64,000 bases of DNA, taken from Stenotrophomonas sp. ASS1 (GTDB taxonomy: Bacteria; Pseudomonadota; Gammaproteobacteria; Xanthomonadales; Xanthomonadaceae). Positions within the stretch are counted from its first letter, which is position 1; each line of letters begins with the position of its first letter. Location: assembly GCF_004346925.1 (NCBI RefSeq), contig NZ_CP031167.1, positions 3,740,001-3,804,000 of the forward strand, read 5' to 3'. Below, piece after piece: positions 9,955 through 64,000 of this stretch. The notes under the pieces were generated by a model that worked only from the letters and a program-made list of their open reading frames with translations, was not told the origin of the DNA and did not search any database. The position numbers and the translations under genes are program-made.

Positions 9955-12597
9955 ATGTACTGGCTCAGCCGCCACCGGATGCTGTTGCTGACCATCGCGG
10001 TGATGGTCGGCGGCACCGTGCTGTGTGCGGTCGCCGCCGGCCACTACGCCTGGCGGCGCGCCCTCGGTGAGGAAAGCAGCCAGGTACAACGCCAGCTGCA
10101 GTTGTATGGCCAGGGCCTGCAGCAGCGCATCGACCGCTTCGGCACGCTGCCGCAGGTACTGGCACTGGATCCGGATCTGCTGCACGCCCTGCGTGTGCAG
10201 CCCTCGCCCACCGAACGGCAGCGGCTGAACCTCAAGCTGCAACGCGCCAATGAAGTCACCCGTGCCTCGACCCTGACCCTGGTCGGTCACGATGGCGTGG
10301 CGGTGGCGGCGAGCAACTGGGACCAGCCGACCACCAACGTCGGTGAGAACTACAGCTATCGTCCCTATTACCGCCAGGCGCTGGCCCAGGGCCGCGGCCG
10401 CTTCTACGGCATCGGCATGACCACCGGTGTGCCCGGCTACTACCTGTCGCAGGCCATCGAGGAAGACGGCAAGCGGCTCGGCGTGGTGGTGATCAAGGTC
10501 GAGCTGTCGGCACTGGAGCAGGAGTGGCTGAGCAGCCCTGACGTGGTGCTGGCCAGTGACGACCACGACGTGGTGTTCCTGGCCAACCGTGACAGCTGGC
10601 GCTACCGCCTGCTGCGACCGCTGGGCGCCGATGAGCGCCGCGAGATGCTGGACGCCCGCCAGTACGCCGATCGCACCCTGCAGCCACTGCGCGCACGTAC
10701 CGAGGATGTACTGGCCGATGGCGGCCGCATGGTGCGCCTGCTGGATCCGGCATTGCCGCAGCCGATGCTGTGGCAGAGCCTTGCGCTGCCGGCCGAAGAC
10801 TGGAACCTGCACCTGCTGCACGACGCCAGTGCCGCCACCGCCGCCGGCCGTGCGGCCGCGCTTACCGGAGGTGCTGCGTGGCTGGCGCTGGGCTTCCTGG
10901 TGCTGTTCGTGCAGCAGCGCCGGCGCCTGGCCAAGCATCGCCTGCGCAGCCGCCGCGAGCTGGAAACCCTGCTCAAGCAGCATGCACAGGAACTGCGCAC
11001 CGCACAGGATGGCCTGCTGCAGGCCGCCACCGATGCCGACAGCGGCCTAAGCCGCAGCCTTGAACACCTGCCGCAGGGCGTGGTGGTGATCGACCGGGAC
11101 CTGCGTCTGGTCGCATGGAATTCGCGCTACCTGGAACTGTTCCGTTTCCCGCTGGACCTGGTGCGCGTGGGGCGGCCCATCGAGGAACTGTTCCGCTTCA
11201 ACGCACGCCGTGGCCTGCTCGGTCCCGGCCCGGTCGACGAGGCCATCGAGCGTCGCCTCAACCACCTGCGCAGCGGCCGTCCGCACATGCGCGAAAGTGA
11301 GAAGGACGACGGTACGGTGCTGGAAATCCGCGGCAACCCGCTGCCCGACGGCGGCTTCGTCACCAGCTACGCCGACATCACCAGCTACAAGAATGCTGCA
11401 CGCGAACTGCGCTCGCTGGCCGATGCACTGGAACACCGCATCGCCGAACGTACCCACGACCTGGACGAAGCACGCCGCGAGGCCGAACAGGCCAACCGCT
11501 ACAAGACCCGCTTCGTCGCCTCGGCCGTGCACGACTTGCTGCAACCGCTCAACGCAGCACGCATGTTCGTCTCGGTGCTGCGCGGCAAGCTGAGCGATCC
11601 GGCGCAGCAGCAGACCAGCGATCACATCGACGCTGCATTGGCCGCGCAGGATGCGATCCTCAACAGCCTGCTGGATATCGCGCGGTTGGAATCGGGCAGC
11701 CTGCCGACCCGTGTGCAGGCGTTCCGGCTCGGGCCGCTGCTGCAGACACTGGCGCGCGAATTCGGCATCGCCGCGCAGTCACGTGGCCTGGTGGTGGACT
11801 GGGTCGATACCGATGCGGTGGTGGTCAGCGATGAAGCGCTGCTGCGCCGCATCCTGCAGAATTTCCTGTCCAACGCGCTGCGCTACAGCGAGCGCGGTCG
11901 CGTGCTTCTGGGCTGCCGTCGCCGCGAAGGCCTGCTGTGGATCGAGGTGCACGACCAGGGCCCCGGCATCCCCGATGCGTTGCAGGGCGAGATCTTCGAG
12001 GAATTCCGCCGCCTGCACGACGGCCAGCAGCGCGGTGCCGGCCTTGGCCTGGCCATCGTCGACCGCATCGGCCGCCTGCTCGGACATCCGATCCGGCTGC
12101 GCTCGCAGCTGGGCCAGGGCAGCGTGTTCGCCGTGGGCGTGCCGTTCGGCGACGCCAGCGCGATACCCGCCACCGCGCCCGCGCCGGTGCTCGCGCAGGA
12201 ACCGGCGGCGGACAACCCGCTGCGAGGGCGCCGGGTGTGGGTGATCGATGACGATCCGCACGTGTGCGCGGCCAGCCGCGCGCTGCTGGAGCGCTGGGGC
12301 TGCGAGGTGCTGCTGGCCGATGGCCCGCAGGCAGCGCTGCAGTTGGCCACGACGGCAACCGTGCCGGAGCTGGTGCTGCTGGATGTGCGCATGGGTGACC
12401 ACCACGGCCCGGTGCTGTACGAGACATTGGCAGAGCTGTGGCAGACCCGCCCGCCGGTGGTGCTGGTCACTGCAGAGCGCGATGCGGGATTGCGTGAGAT
12501 GGCTGCCGAGCGTGGCTGGGGAATGATGGCCAAGCCGGTGAAGCCGCCGGCGCTGCGGGCGCTGATGAGTCAGTTGTTGATCCGGCATCGCGGGTAG
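9955..12597 (+). CDS. DctB-like hybrid sensor histidine kinase (PAS, HisKA, HATPase, REC)
   Basis: Membrane sensor kinase of 880 residues. Two hydrophobic segments (about 9-26 and 300-318) enclose a periplasmic domain whose RIDRFGTLPQVLALDPDLL, YRPYYRQAL and MTTGVPGYYLSQA blocks match the dicarboxylate-binding sensor region of DctB. A PAS domain follows (about 370-470), then a HisKA box with the phospho-accepting His526 in VHDLLQPLNAARM, an ATPase with an NALRYSERG N-box and GLGLAIVDRIG, and a C-terminal receiver with Asp810 in LLDVRMGD. It lies 66 bases after the porin and probably controls dctA and the porin, perhaps through the LuxR-type regulator encoded convergently downstream. Family and domains are clear; the ligand is inferred from the DctB-like domain. 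Confidence 0.9.
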   Translation: MYWLSRHRMLLLTIAVMVGGTVLCAVAAGHYAWRRALGEESSQVQRQLQLYGQGLQQRIDRFGTLPQVLALDPDLLHALRVQPSPTERQRLNLKLQRANEVTRASTLTLVGHDGVAVAASNWDQPTTNVGENYSYRPYYRQALAQGRGRFYGIGMTTGVPGYYLSQAIEEDGKRLGVVVIKVELSALEQEWLSSPDVVLASDDHDVVFLANRDSWRYRLLRPLGADERREMLDARQYADRTLQPLRARTEDVLADGGRMVRLLDPALPQPMLWQSLALPAEDWNLHLLHDASAATAAGRAAALTGGAAWLALGFLVLFVQQRRRLAKHRLRSRRELETLLKQHAQELRTAQDGLLQAATDADSGLSRSLEHLPQGVVVIDRDLRLVAWNSRYLELFRFPLDLVRVGRPIEELFRFNARRGLLGPGPVDEAIERRLNHLRSGRPHMRESEKDDGTVLEIRGNPLPDGGFVTSYADITSYKNAARELRSLADALEHRIAERTHDLDEARREAEQANRYKTRFVASAVHDLLQPLNAARMFVSVLRGKLSDPAQQQTSDHIDAALAAQDAILNSLLDIARLESGSLPTRVQAFRLGPLLQTLAREFGIAAQSRGLVVDWVDTDAVVVSDEALLRRILQNFLSNALRYSERGRVLLGCRRREGLLWIEVHDQGPGIPDALQGEIFEEFRRLHDGQQRGAGLGLAIVDRIGRLLGHPIRLRSQLGQGSVFAVGVPFGDASAIPATAPAPVLAQEPAADNPLRGRRVWVIDDDPHVCAASRALLERWGCEVLLADGPQAALQLATTATVPELVLLDVRMGDHHGPVLYETLAELWQTRPPVVLVTAERDAGLREMAAERGWGMMAKPVKPPALRALMSQLLIRHRG

Positions 12598-12667
12598 TTT
12601 CCAGCCAACGGCGCAGCCCCTCGTGGGTGGTGCCTGGTTTGTCGTGGAAAGCAGAAGCCGTGGGTGG

Positions 12668-12770
12668 GCCGGTCGGGATGGGTTCGCGGGGGACGCCGTG
12701 AATCCGTCCCTGGAGGCTTGGCAGCCGCATCCATGCGGCTGACACCCCCGCGAACCCAACCCGACCGGCC
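12668..12770 (+). repeat. Structured intergenic element, copy A (outer stem, linker, inner hairpin)
   Basis: The outer arms 12668-12692 and about 12745-12769 pair at 24 of 25 positions (GCCGGTCGGGATGGGTTCGC on the left). The linker 12693-12719 begins ACGCCGTGAATCC. The inner hairpin CAGCCGCATCCATGCGGCTG is at 12722-12741. The same architecture recurs at 24233-24336 and 24475-24582 with different stems. It lies downstream of, and in the same direction as, the hybrid kinase gene. Confidence 0.8.
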
Positions 12771-12849
12771 TCTGACAGATTTCGGTGGCCTGCCACCCAC
12801 GGAGAAGAAAAAGAAGAACAAAAGCCGGTCGCGCGCTGCGCTTGCTCGT

Positions 12850-12917
12850 GTAGAGACGAGCCCATGCTCGGCTTCGCGGACCGACCGCAAAGCAGCCGAG
12901 CGTAGGCTCGGCTCTAC
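12850..12917. repeat. SMAG-type inverted pair
   Basis: GTAGAGACGAGCCCATGCTC at the left end and its inverted partner ending GGCTCGGCTCTAC at the right end form a dimeric GTAG palindrome. Confidence 0.75.
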
Positions 12918-12918
12918 A

Positions 12919-12950
12919 AAAGGCGGCCTGCCAGGCTGCCTTTGCTTTTG
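12919..12950 (+). terminator. Rho-independent terminator
   Basis: AAAGGCGGCCTG pairs with CAGGCTGCCTTT and is followed by GCTTTT. It is the strongest terminator between the two convergent genes. Confidence 0.65.
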
Positions 12951-13055
12951 ATGTTCTTTTCTCTTCCGTGGATGGATGCGCACGGAACCTGCCCGGCCTC
13001 ACCCATGAACTGCTCTACGTGTCCACCCACAAGGGGCTGCGCCGTTGGCTGGAAA

Positions 13056-60142: not shown

Positions 60143-61186
60143 ATGGCCCGCCTGCCCTCCCCTGCGATGCTGATGCGCGCGCCGCACCGGCTGCTGTTCT
60201 TCATCGGCGCCAGCAACCTGCTGCTGGCAATGCTGTGGTGGGCGTTGTGGCTGGGCGCATTGCGCGGGTTGTGGACGCCACAGCCACCATCGCTGCCACC
60301 AGCCTGGCTGCACGCGCTGCTGATGCAGTACATGGTGCTGCCCAGTTTCATCTTCGGCTTCCTGCTTACCGTGTTTCCGCGCTGGATGGCACAGCCGGAG
60401 CTGCCACGCAGCCGTTACGCGCCGGTCGGCATCGGGCTGTTTGGCGAGCAGGCGCTGCTGATTGCCGCCGCCTGCGGGTGGACACCCGGGCTGTGGCCCG
60501 GCCTGCTGCTGGCACTGGCCGGCTGGAGCGCCGGACTGATCGTGCTGGGACGCGTGCTCAAGGCCGCCGGTCCCAACCGCAACTGGCATGCACGCTCCTG
60601 CTATGCCGCACTGCTGCTGGGCTGGCTGGGGCTGCTGCTGTTCATGGCGGTGGGGCGCGGCCACGCCACGCTGATGCCGGTCACGGTGGCACTCGGCACC
60701 TTCGGCCTGCTGCTGCCGGTCTACCTCACCGTCGCGCACCGGATGATCCCGTTCTTCGCCAACAACGTGGTGGATGGCTATGTGGCGTGGCGCCCGCTGC
60801 GCTGGTTGGCTGCGATGTGGGCGCTGCTGATGCTGCGCCTGCTGTTGAGCGCGTTGCAGATCGACCACCTGCTGTGGCTGGCCGATGGGCCGCTGCTGAT
60901 GTTGTCGCTGCAGGCGCTATGGCACTGGTGGCCACGCGGGCCGATGCCGGGCCTGCTTGCCGCCCTGTTCCTGGCACTGGCGTGGCTGCCGATCAGCTTC
61001 GCGTTGTATCTGCTGCAGGACATCGGCCAGATGCTGGGCCATCCGCAACTGCTCGGCCGCGCGCCGCTGCATGCCCTCGCCGTGGGCCTGTTCGGCAGCC
61101 TGCTGGTGGCGATTAAACGGGCAGCTATAGTGCTGCACTTTTACTCAACCTATGGTTGCGCAAGGGCTGAAAACCTTTGGTTGTAA
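60143..61186 (+). pseudogene. NnrS-like heme-copper membrane protein, C-terminus lost by insertion
   Basis: NnrS proteins are polytopic inner-membrane proteins linked to nitrosative stress relief. This frame shows the family start (LMRAPHRLLFFIGASNLLLA), the YMVLPSFIFGFLLTVFPRWM block, and HRMIPFFANNVVDG. It remains family-like up to LHALAVGLFGSLLVA, where the usual continuation with M-x-x-R-x-x-x-GH-x-GR and about three more helices should follow. Instead it reads IKRAAIVLHFYSTYGC and stops after about 25 foreign residues. The change falls at about 61112-61114, where the DNA also becomes richer in AT. I therefore treat it as a truncated gene at an island junction. The start is uncertain (60095, 60143 or 60167). 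Confidence 0.8.
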
Positions 61187-61820
61187 GAGCCCACGGATAG
61201 GGCGGGCGTCACCGCTCACTGGCCCTAGCCATCGACCAATGGCAGAGAGCAGCGTCCTGATGCCGGTCCAAACTCGCCGATTCTTAGCAAACGAGCAGAC
61301 CTCTTGAAGGGACGGAGGAGGAGGACGGCCCTGGAATGCGGACGAAGCATCCAGTTAGTCCTAGCGACTCAGGAGCAGCAGTGGCCGCGATCGCCAGAGT
61401 AACGTTCGCATTGTCTCTCAAGCTGCCGGCCAGCGGCAGACGGCCAGCACTACCGCGTAGTTGTTCAGAGCATCCCTGAGTCGGTAGATCCTGGTAACAA
61501 ACAGCTGTTGCAAATTGCAAAAAGTGAAAGTAGTGTGCAGAACAGGCATAAGGAATGTGACTAAAGCTAATTGACATGCGTAAATTTAGAAAATCGCGGA
61601 CTCAAGGAAGAATCACTGGTCACTCGGACGCAGTCATCCGCGGACTCCTCAGCCACGCACAGCCACTAGCGACCAAGCCCGCTGCGCGGCCTATTATCAC
61701 CAATTCCGTGTACCGGGGACGCGTTGCCTGCCGGCGCGAACCCTCGTTTACAAATTGCTTTTCGGGTTCCAGCCCGAGCCTCGGCGCTAGGACTGCGCCA
61801 AATTAAAGAAGGAGTTTTAA
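61187..61820. other. Gene-poor, AT-richer left end of the inserted region
   Basis: I see no convincing gene in these 634 bases. They hold a SMAG-type unit in the first part (61423-61454) and, further right, AT-rich DNA with a TTGACA hexamer at 61571-61576 that lacks a good -10 partner. The stretch 61807-61820 carries the strong AAGAAGGAG ribosome site of the first precursor gene. The promoter of the peptide genes should lie here. Confidence 0.5.
61423..61454. repeat. SMAG-type palindrome in the island
   Basis: GCTGCCGGCCAGCGGCAGAC, then GGCCAGCACTACC, is a degenerate GTAG-type unit. Confidence 0.6.
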
Positions 61821-62018
61821 ATGTTCGAACTCGGAACAGCAATGCTGAAGCACGTTGCTGGTGGTCAACAAGCGCCATCGACCTCTACTTCAGGGAACAC
61901 CACCACTCTCACCTGTCCCGCGGGAACCACTCCGATGGTGGTTGTGTTTGGGCCGACAGGCGACTCAGGCGGTGGAGTTACTGTGACCTGCATTCCTGAT
62001 AGTCGTAGCCATTCCTAG
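61821..62018 (+). CDS. Double-glycine leader precursor peptide 1 (65 aa)
   Basis: The ATG at 61821 is set by AAGGAG ending eight bases upstream. The 65 residues divide into a 15-residue leader, MFELGTAMLKHVAGG, with the GG cleavage signal recognised by C39-peptidase exporters, and a 50-residue core that starts QQAPSTSTSG. The core is rich in Thr, Ser and Gly, has two cysteines (core positions 17 and 42) and contains CPAGTTP. It is likely cut and exported by the transporter encoded at 63270. It resembles class II bacteriocin or microcin precursors in layout, but I do not recognise the core. No modification enzyme is visible in the window. Confidence 0.75.
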   Translation: MFELGTAMLKHVAGGQQAPSTSTSGNTTTLTCPAGTTPMVVVFGPTGDSGGGVTVTCIPDSRSHS

Positions 62019-62121
62019 TTGTCACTGGGGCTTTCATCTACGCGGGGAAGAGCCTGCCAATAAGGTGCCTTTTCTTGCGGGCATACATATCTATCAACAA
62101 ACACAAACAAACGGAATCGAC

Positions 62122-62319
62122 ATGCGCACGATCAAATCAAGTGAAATGGAATTCATCAGCGGCGCTGCACAGGCACCAAATTGCGTGGTAGTTACCGCCA
62201 ACATTACCGGCTCCAACGGCGTCTCCAGCCAGCAGGTCGCTGTCGTCTGCTCCTGCCCGGAGGGCACGACGATGTCAACCACGACCTCGGGCGGCACCAC
62301 CACCGCCACATGTAATTGA
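62122..62319 (+). CDS. Double-glycine-type leader precursor peptide 2 (65 aa)
   Basis: The start at 62122 follows an ACGGA ribosome site. It has the same design as precursor 1: a 15-residue leader MRTIKSSEMEFISGA (classic SSEMEFISG hydrophobic spacing, GA instead of GG) and a 50-residue core that begins AQAPNCVVVTAN. The core has four cysteines (core positions 6, 28, 30, 49) and contains CPEGTTM, matching CPAGTTP of peptide 1, and GGTTTATC near the end, like NTTTLTC in peptide 1. The two are probably related and exported by the same transporter. A strong hairpin follows the stop. Confidence 0.78.
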   Translation: MRTIKSSEMEFISGAAQAPNCVVVTANITGSNGVSSQQVAVVCSCPEGTTMSTTTSGGTTTATCN

Positions 62320-62326
62320 TGGAACC

Positions 62327-62350
62327 AGGGGACCTCCTGTGAGGTCCCCT
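62327..62350 (+). terminator. Perfect hairpin after the precursor genes
   Basis: AGGGGACCTC pairs perfectly with GAGGTCCCCT over CTGT. No T-run follows, so it may be an RNA stabiliser or partial terminator that leaves the peptides expressed more than the genes downstream. Confidence 0.7.
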
Positions 62351-62373
62351 GAACGAAGCGAACAGGAGTGAAA

Positions 62374-63066
62374 GTGGTGATCAACCGCTATTTCTGCCCT
62401 CTGGTTCTGTCTGGAATCATCCTGTCGACCTGCCCTAAGCAGGCTACAGCTGAACCAGTTTCCGAAATCAATATATCGTCAGCGTCATCAGCTTGGAACT
62501 CATGCCAAGTCTTGAAAAAGGGGGTGGTCTATGTCCAAGGGAGTAACGCTCTATGCGTAAAGGGATATATCGACTACGACCTAGCAGACCAGTTTATGAC
62601 GCGAGTGAAGAATGCCGAGAGCATTGGACTCTCCATCGATCTTGTTTTAATTGAAAGCCAAGGTGGCGAGCTTCGTCCAGCCATACGGATTGCGAAGAAA
62701 ATTGAAGAACTCCATGCCAGCGTGGCTGTTGGCGGGATGTGTGCTTCCTCCTGCGCGCAGTTCGTATTCATGGCAGGGAGACAGAAGCTCCTGTTGAGGC
62801 AAAGCCATCTGCTTTTCCATGGCGGCCCTGTTTCCGAGCAGCAGATCAAGAGAATGAACCTTTCCGCCTCCGCAGTCTCCAGCCTGAATCGCCAAAATCT
62901 GGAAATGACTGAGTTTTATCAGGAGCGCAACCTCGACTTGCGGATGCTCACGGAACCACCGGCCAAAGTGCAGGCGCGAATTGACGCCGGAGAGATTGTC
63001 ATGTGGTCTTGGAGCAAGGCCGAACTTGAGTCCTTTGGCGTTACGGGACTGGCTCTTGAAGAGTGA
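62374..63066 (+). CDS. Periplasmic ClpP-like (COG3904-type) putative serine hydrolase
   Basis: The GTG at 62374 is five bases after AGGAG and is preferred to the GTG at 62368 that would overlap this site. The 230 residues begin with an N-terminal signal sequence (YFCPLVLSGIILSTC). The core follows the ClpP/crotonase fold of COG3904 periplasmic proteins: LIESQGGELRPAIRIAKKI (oxyanion loop), GGMCASSCAQFVFMAG with a Ser (125 or 126) at the nucleophile position, and LLFHGGP with a candidate His149. It could process or degrade the exported peptides or protect the producer; neither is shown. Base composition is AT-richer than the chromosome around it. Confidence 0.75.
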   Translation: MVINRYFCPLVLSGIILSTCPKQATAEPVSEINISSASSAWNSCQVLKKGVVYVQGSNALCVKGYIDYDLADQFMTRVKNAESIGLSIDLVLIESQGGELRPAIRIAKKIEELHASVAVGGMCASSCAQFVFMAGRQKLLLRQSHLLFHGGPVSEQQIKRMNLSASAVSSLNRQNLEMTEFYQERNLDLRMLTEPPAKVQARIDAGEIVMWSWSKAELESFGVTGLALEE

Positions 63067-63269
63067 ATACAATTTTCTTGAATTGATTCCATCTCTGATC
63101 GCCTCAGATAAAGCCAAATATTGACGCCAAGACGTGTCCGCATTGGAGCCGAGTTCTACTGGCACTCGCGGTACCAGAGAGCCGTTCGGCATATCACCAC
63201 AGGCCACCTCAAACAGTGCATTCTGCACGAATCGATTCACCCGTTTCATCGAAACCTGGATCAAGCTAC
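63067..63269. other. Intergenic gap before the exporter gene
   Basis: I see no gene here. The exporter frame is open back to 63087 but has no ATG before 63270, and the upstream part does not look like exporter sequence. Confidence 0.45.
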
Positions 63270-64000
63270 ATGGATGTCGTTCTCCAATCTGAAGCGGCTG
63301 AGTGCGGAATCGCTTGCTTGGCGATGATCGCCTCGCATCATGGTAATGCCATCGGCCTGCGCGAGATTCGTCGCCGGCACTCATTTTCACTTAAAGGCAC
63401 CTCTCTCCCTCAGTTAATCGCTGTCGCAGGCAAGCTTGGCCTACAGTCGCGTGCGCTCCGGTTGGAGCTTGACGAGCTGGATCAACTGAAACTTCCCTGC
63501 ATAGCTCACTGGGATCTCAATCACTTCGTGGTGGTACGCAAAGTTGAGCGGAACACGGTCACCGTCGTGGATCCGGCATTGGGAACGCGCAAGCTCGCAA
63601 TGAGCGAGTTCTCGAAGCACTTCACCGGGGTTTCCCTTGAGCTACAGCCTGGGGGCGATTTCCGCCGAATCCGTCGCCCGGAACCAACGCCGTTACCTTG
63701 GCTTACCGGAAGAATTAGAGGCCTTGGCAGATCGTTGGCCCTGCTGATCGTCCTCTCTCTTTCTCTGCAGATCTTCGTGCTTTCGGCTCCATTTTTTATG
63801 CAATGGGTGGTCGACCAGGCACTCGTTGCATCCGATCACAACCTTCTCTCTGTGCTGGCCGCTGGCTTCGGCTTGGCGCTTCTCATTCAAGTTGGTATCG
63901 GTCAGATCCGCGGCAGGTCGGTCATCTATTTGTCCAGCCGTCTGGGCTCACAATGGTCGGCAAACGTATTTAGCCACTTGATCAAACTACGTCTGGATTT
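63270..64000 (+). CDS. Peptidase-containing ABC exporter (C39 domain), 3' end outside window
   Basis: The first 243 residues of a PCAT transporter that cuts double-glycine leaders and exports the core peptide. The C39 peptidase domain (1-125) is complete: Gln6 and Cys12 in LQSEAAECGIACLAM, His85 in WDLNHFVVV, and Asp101 in VVDPALG, giving the papain-like triad. After a linker, transmembrane helices start at about residue 154 (LALLIVLSLSLQIFVLSAPF). The ATPase must lie beyond the window. The ATG at 63270 is the only ATG of the open frame before the peptidase motif. It is very probably the exporter of the two precursors upstream. Confidence 0.92.
   Translation, partial: MDVVLQSEAAECGIACLAMIASHHGNAIGLREIRRRHSFSLKGTSLPQLIAVAGKLGLQSRALRLELDELDQLKLPCIAHWDLNHFVVVRKVERNTVTVVDPALGTRKLAMSEFSKHFTGVSLELQPGGDFRRIRRPEPTPLPWLTGRIRGLGRSLALLIVLSLSLQIFVLSAPFFMQWVVDQALVASDHNLLSVLAAGFGLALLIQVGIGQIRGRSVIYLSSRLGSQWSANVFSHLIKLRLD

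Follow-up and report, generated by a model that had tools for sequence, protein, structure and literature searches.

A candidate class II microcin-type locus of Stenotrophomonas with a ClpP-like protein in the position of an immunity factor

Export of small peptides by ABC exporters carrying a C39 peptidase domain, together with cleavage of the exported precursors by that domain, is established. The loci of class II microcins normally consist of the peptide, an immunity protein, an adaptor and the exporter, and the microcin immunity proteins known so far are mostly small membrane proteins (PMC9746304). Immunity of a proteolytic kind is indicated for a Vibrio cholerae microcin by the title of Kim et al. 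2024, as cited in PMC13174018. Small proteins are also exported in the Cdz two-protein bacteriocin system of Caulobacter, and Cdz-like systems have been reported from many other bacteria (PMC5380434). Our literature search found no paper combining a class II microcin with ClpP.

Here we describe a locus at the right edge of a 64,000-nucleotide stretch (hereafter the window; G000:C1:3740001-3804000) of the 4.56-Mb genome of Stenotrophomonas sp. ASS1. It resembles the class II microcins of the MccV/CvaC type in its GG/GA leaders, its C39 exporter (PCAT) with HlyD adaptor and its compactness, but differs from them in that its cores, which look like Cys-bounded Thr/Ser-rich hairpins, fall in no microcin family, and in that the place usually taken by a small membrane immunity protein is held by a predicted periplasmic ClpP-like protein. 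With the Vibrio cholerae microcin it would share a protease acting as immunity protein within a microcin locus, a likeness drawn from the cited title (PMC13174018). The Cdz system is similar in its two small proteins and type I export, whereas the glycine zippers of CdzC/D and the three predicted transmembrane domains of CdzI have no counterpart found in the window locus (PMC5380434). The genes follow in the order ORF1, ORF2, the 232-residue ClpP-like protein, the exporter and HlyD, the last two lying mostly past the window edge.

60167..61113, + strand: 5' part of nnrS, broken by the island; the 3' part restarts at G000:C1:3807677, outside the window
61114..64000 and on to G000:C1:3807676, no strand: low-GC island, 6563 bp in total, from empty-site comparison
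61409..61475 (left) and G000:C1:3806835-3806902 (right), no strand: inverted repeat bracketing the operon
61821..62018, + strand: ORF1, precursor 1, 65 aa, with a 50-residue core containing one Cys-bounded segment, C32...C57
61821..61865, + strand: ORF1 leader MFELGTAMLKHVAGG, fitting the double-glycine leader pattern and ending ...HVAGG
62122..62319, + strand: ORF2, precursor 2, 65 aa, with a 50-residue core containing four cysteines and two consecutive beta-hairpins predicted by AlphaFold2
62122..62166, + strand: ORF2 leader MRTIKSSEMEFISGA, fitting the double-glycine (GA) leader pattern and ending ...FISGA
62326..62351, + strand: RNA hairpin in the gap between ORF2 and the ClpP-like gene, -23.2 kcal/mol, z = -3.1, without a T-run
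62368..63066, + strand: ClpP-like protein, predicted periplasmic, 232 aa; the true start may be GTG at 62374 or 62377
63216..64000, + strand: C39-peptidase ABC exporter, N-terminal part, starting at GTG 63216 or ATG 63271 and ending at G000:C1:3805378
G000:C1:3805375-3806655, 3' of the exporter: HlyD adaptor, 426 aa (HlyD_3, E=5.6e-22)

The locus lies on a horizontally acquired island. In four relatives (L069-L072, 87-94% identity around the site) nnrS is uninterrupted, blastn places the island junctions such that 6563 bp stand in place of 5 bp of nnrS, and the GC content is 51-58% across the gene-bearing part of the island as against 64-69% in the flanks. The first-pass annotation had recognised the peptides and the exporter, both of which are upheld here, but had overlooked this insertion as well as the gene at 62368-63066. 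The inverted repeat has 48-nt arms that are 88% complementary, with similarity reaching ~67 nt; the genome has just two occurrences of a core pattern of it, single similar stretches being present in other Stenotrophomonas genomes, and the repeat is possibly a REP-like element or marks the termini of a mobile cassette. The region from the peptides to the ClpP-like gene was found in no other Stenotrophomonas genome among 91, and matches elsewhere were confined to pieces of the leftmost 365 bp. The left edge (61114-61438) recurs at 69-80% identity in three other Stenotrophomonas genomes (L192:9814-10102, L193:9470-9765 and L194:9514-9671), where no match to the exporter, HlyD or ClpP-like genes of the cassette occurs near it, which looks as though this segment were part of some other element, whether mobile or intergenic. 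A common nnrS neighbourhood with L056 and L066, suspected from frame-shadow ORFs, was rejected, as there is no nnrS match there.

Both precursors divide into a leader of 15 and a core of 50 residues, MFELGTAMLKHVAGG followed by QQAPSTSTSGNTTTLTCPAGTTPMVVVFGPTGDSGGGVTVTCIPDSRSHS in ORF1 and MRTIKSSEMEFISGA followed by AQAPNCVVVTANITGSNGVSSQQVAVVCSCPEGTTMSTTTSGGTTTATCN in ORF2. The description given in the first-pass annotation, namely 65-residue precursors split in this way, cores starting with [Q/A]QAP and sharing CP[AE]GTT, and two and four cysteines, respectively, is accurate throughout; the TTTxTC motif that it had also listed is indeed present in both, yet at non-equivalent positions, before CPAGTT in ORF1 and at the C-terminus in ORF2, and may be coincidence. 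A strong ribosome site (AAGGAG) lies closely 5' of ORF1, and that of ORF2 is weak. The two sequences are mutually similar, the full-length score being reached by 2 of 2000 shuffles (p=0.001) and the cores alone giving p=0.004 in the same kind of test. ORF1 belongs to no family in Pfam, NCBIfam or PADLOC; the cores of both match no Pfam or NCBIfam microcin and on this basis show no similarity to a verified microcin. Chance-level matches were all that tblastn of both returned from 120 relatives, or a pattern search for ORF2 from 85,000 species genomes, and the exact cores were not found in the 91 Stenotrophomonas genomes or in any other genome searched.

The AlphaFold2 model of ORF2, built on a three-sequence alignment and with a pTM of 0.41, places strands at 20-29/35-44 and 51-56/59-64, that is, two consecutive beta-hairpins (core pLDDT 81-85), and a PDB fold search with this model gave nothing significant (best E=1.2). 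Both cores resemble Thr/Ser-rich beta-hairpins with cysteines at their limits, a single one for ORF1 and a predicted two for ORF2.

Downstream, the first-pass annotation had placed a C39 exporter with a Cys-His-Asp triad, and C30, H103 and D119 are found there together with Q24, Walker A, LSGGQ and Walker B; the gene is complete in the genome (720 aa), with Peptidase_C39 (E=1.3e-38), ABC_membrane and ABC_tran domains. The RNA hairpin following ORF2 possibly stabilises or attenuates the transcript. The island ORF list contains no small membrane-bound immunity protein and no further unassigned gene of substance, and it is the ClpP-like protein that occupies that slot.

The ClpP-like protein carries an N-terminal signal sequence (by inspection) and matches Pfam CLP_protease (E=1.8e-5). 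Its AlphaFold2 model (pLDDT 76.9) has ClpP chains as top PDB matches (Foldseek E=8.7e-7, probability 1.00), and all of the matches listed are ClpP. In profile alignment Ser127 (62746-62748, within C-A-S-S-C) and His151 (62818-62820) fall on the active-site Ser and His of ClpP, whose oxyanion strand corresponds to G99-G100; S127, H151 and G99-G100 are invariant in alignments A1, A3, A4 and A6, and C-x-S-x-C around the serine is conserved in the family. The candidate for the catalytic acid, D206, is not conserved, being replaced by Asn in L121, and the alignments contain no other invariant acid, which counts against a proteolytic immunity role. Fold and aligned residues are thus those of ClpP and of the COG3904-like periplasmic ClpP-fold proteins, from which the window protein differs in its signal peptide, in the conserved C-x-S-x-C, in having no ATPase partner in the window locus and, for some of the lineages, in the link to microcins. 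We also rejected an origin from phages or defence systems, there being only weak head-maturation-protease matches, no PADLOC match and no phage match for the Pantoea relative.

In Lysobacterales, Rhodoferax, Pantoea and Klebsiella, relatives of this protein are encoded next to C39 exporters and peptides with GG leaders. A profile of the protein yields seven strong members, including the window's own, at 242 bits or more, the remainder scoring at most 64.5 bits. C39-exporter loci house all seven; a GG-leader peptide lies 27-758 nt upstream in five, and in the other two (L066, L093) GG peptides are found ~2 kb off, beside the exporter. The linked peptides include MREITTQEVELVNGG KTEAGCSTTTTTTKNPDGSTTTTKTKECHISHS in L056, which has a second near-identical copy, MEELTVDEINIVNGG ISAGCSYTKTKTTTKDGTTTTTSTLECHGSSK in L095 and MKELNMSEVAGVSGG TDTPPVKNPDGTTSCPTGTFPSQLPNGTIVCSKPN in L121. 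The last (TDTPPVKNPDGTTSCPTGTFPSQLPNGTIVC) has the start, the CPxGT motif and the ClpP-like neighbour in common with the window, so that the earlier statement that the cores match nothing known holds for Pfam and NCBIfam families but not for this relative.

Linkage of ClpP-like gene and peptide was also obtained by searches independent of the exporter, in Pantoea, Klebsiella variicola and one enterobacterial chromosome. Tblastn of plasmids with the window ClpP-like protein, exporters not being used as a criterion, gave a Pantoea dispersa locus in the order ClpP-like, GG peptide (FSIGSCSIGGSFSTSKDGHGGSTTSASFHAGC...), HlyD and C39 exporter; through it we reached pKLVA-1 of Klebsiella variicola, with the same order around a GG peptide containing ...GCNGSYSHTSTTNKDGSHSESTSFSGGC..., and the enterobacterial chromosome has the same four genes with unrelated chromosomal genes on either side. 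The Klebsiella relative gives a weak match to Pfam MccV, covering the leader and the beginning of the core (E=0.0043, short of the curated cut-off). Lack of conserved leaders and cores beside the exporter in related genomes had been named as a refuting condition; the exact sequences are indeed not kept within the genus, and only the design and the gene set recur, in other families and orders. On the Klebsiella pneumoniae plasmid p298-2 (L198:6597-6737) an IS3 element truncates the microcin-type peptide gene after residue 46, and neither HlyD nor an exporter is annotated for 6 kb around; the ClpP-like gene is nevertheless intact, as might be expected of an orphan immunity gene. In Rhodoferax (L134) and a betaproteobacterium (L167) diverged ClpP-like genes lie by GG peptides whose cores are without the hairpin design.

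Most ClpP-like homologues in a phylum sample are unlinked, GG peptides being near them in 2 of 30 genomes, which speaks against an immunity role, as does the prevalence of small membrane proteins among known microcin immunity factors; of 22 in Enterobacterales one has an adjacent GG peptide and one more is part of a different C39 cluster. When 59 proteins are placed on a tree, the microcin label takes five changes (4-6 over bootstraps), at least two of them forced by well-supported branches, and a single shallow clade of microcin-linked proteins is rejected on this ground. The linkage would consequently be either old and often lost or of repeated origin.

The peptides linked to these genes also share a design. 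In L056, L095, Pantoea and Klebsiella the inter-cysteine segment is Ser/Thr-rich with a central (N/S/T)KDG or NPDG turn, and a design like that of the window cores, C...KDG...C, is common to the peptides that accompany ClpP-like genes in Pantoea, Klebsiella and Lysobacterales. A hairpin criterion set after seeing the data (two cysteines 13-27 apart, Ser+Thr of at least 35%, a Gly in the centre) is passed by 7 of 11 ClpP-linked cores and by none of 48 other exporter-linked GG cores. Fisher's p of 1e-6 has only descriptive value here, given the post hoc criterion and the fact that the seven include a pair of near-copies (L201/L204). ORF1 and L121 possess the Cys pair, with a lower Ser/Thr content between, and both fail.

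That this is a class II microcin-type locus, as the first-pass annotation had proposed, is well supported by the leaders, the C39 exporter, HlyD, the island context and the relatives. The fuller reading that we favour, a horizontally acquired microcin-type locus in which hairpin peptides are combined with proteolytic self-immunity, has in our judgement an even chance of being right. Both precursors would be recognised by their GG/GA leaders, the C39 domain would cut after residue 15, and the peptides would leave by way of exporter and HlyD together with a TolC-type channel encoded on the chromosome; disulfides, formed in the periplasm or outside, would staple them into Thr/Ser-rich beta-hairpins, one for ORF1 and two for ORF2. 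Such peptides probably target competing bacteria, an antibacterial activity that the company they keep in the sequence makes likely. Since loci of the Klebsiella type consist of the ClpP-like gene, peptide, HlyD and exporter only, the ClpP-like gene appears to fill the immunity slot, and its product would most likely confer self-immunity in the producer periplasm by cutting, or at least binding, the cell's own peptides. MccF, which protects against microcin C, is a further precedent for immunity of a proteolytic type. The recurrence of a ClpP-like protein beside such peptides in unrelated bacteria, Klebsiella plasmids included, points to a type of microcin not described before, with a protease protecting the producing cell. 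More tentatively, these loci could constitute a new Gram-negative microcin family of disulfide-stapled Thr/Ser-rich beta-hairpins with a dedicated periplasmic ClpP-fold protease as protection, to which ClpP-like proteins became linked more than once (Lysobacterales, Burkholderiales, Enterobacterales).

The main rival to proteolytic self-immunity gives the ClpP-like protein a role in maturation, as a protease trimming or otherwise processing the secreted peptides in the periplasm, with immunity lying elsewhere or unneeded. The conserved Ser/His and ClpP fold would suit such a role, and processing is plausible in an enterobacterial cluster (L250:932-6781) where HlyD and a C39 exporter occur with a radical-SAM-like protein (CxxxCxxC), an acetyltransferase-like protein and a ClpP-like lipoprotein; this may be a locus for a modified peptide (RiPP) that likewise uses a ClpP-like partner. 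We nevertheless regard it as unlikely, for the leader would already be removed by the C39 domain, a second cleavage motif is not recognisable in the cores, the four-gene loci show no other candidate for immunity, and the K. pneumoniae plasmid keeps its ClpP-like gene despite the broken peptide gene. Somewhat less probable still is that the peptides are no toxins but secreted signals or adhesive or surface peptides of Thr-rich beta-structure, regulated through turnover by the ClpP-like protein: unlike pore-forming microcins they have Thr-rich beta-hairpins and neither hydrophobic helix nor glycine zipper, but a low-GC island in a chromosomal gene, plasmid-borne relatives and a patchy distribution are typical of bacteriocin loci, and related exporters accompany many GG-leader peptides, several of them glycine-rich like microcins.

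The first-pass annotation had read the matched lengths as a two-component peptide, that is, a bacteriocin in which the ORF1 and ORF2 products are active only together. They are indeed adjacent, both of 65 residues and similar beyond the shuffled level; yet Klebsiella, Pantoea, L095 and L121 have one hairpin peptide and L056 two almost identical copies, each paired with a ClpP-like gene of its own, so that the matched length looks incidental. GxxxG, typical of class IIb pairs, is by inspection absent from the ORF2 core and occurs once in that of ORF1, within the turn GDSGGG, and we consider obligate pairing improbable. Least probable, indeed very improbable, is that the island is old, carries IS fragments and has decayed to the point where its product is no longer made: an IS-like fragment, identified by eye, lies downstream of HlyD (ORF near L004 6861-7055), no sigma-70-type promoter was found for the locus and no relative keeps the same peptides, against which all five genes are intact and the exporter and ClpP-like protein retain their catalytic residues.

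Should proteolytic self-immunity hold, a ClpP-like gene with a Cys-bounded-hairpin GG-leader peptide and a C39 exporter would form a searchable signature for a type of microcin missed by searches based on known cores or small membrane immunity proteins, and proteolytic immunity, so far reported for one class II microcin, would extend to a family with the ClpP fold. The four parts are all small and amenable to tests in laboratory E. coli.

The closeness of exporters by itself was rejected as a predictor of peptide type, the nearest ones (Stenotrophomonas maltophilia, 67%) accompanying unrelated GG peptides. In Pseudoxanthomonas jiangsuensis (L105:7349-9003) three GG-leader peptides lie by the exporter and no ClpP-like gene was detected in the locus; one of the peptides, ending NCPDGTAPKVSATEATCVKVE, is similar to the core of ORF1 (a level reached by 2 of 1000 shuffles). 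In a relative (G480; L093:10258-12965) the exporter frame is in two parts, 11895-12965 and 10770-11894, and downstream of the split exporter lies a GG-leader peptide of 113 aa that contains the motif TTTQCPDG.
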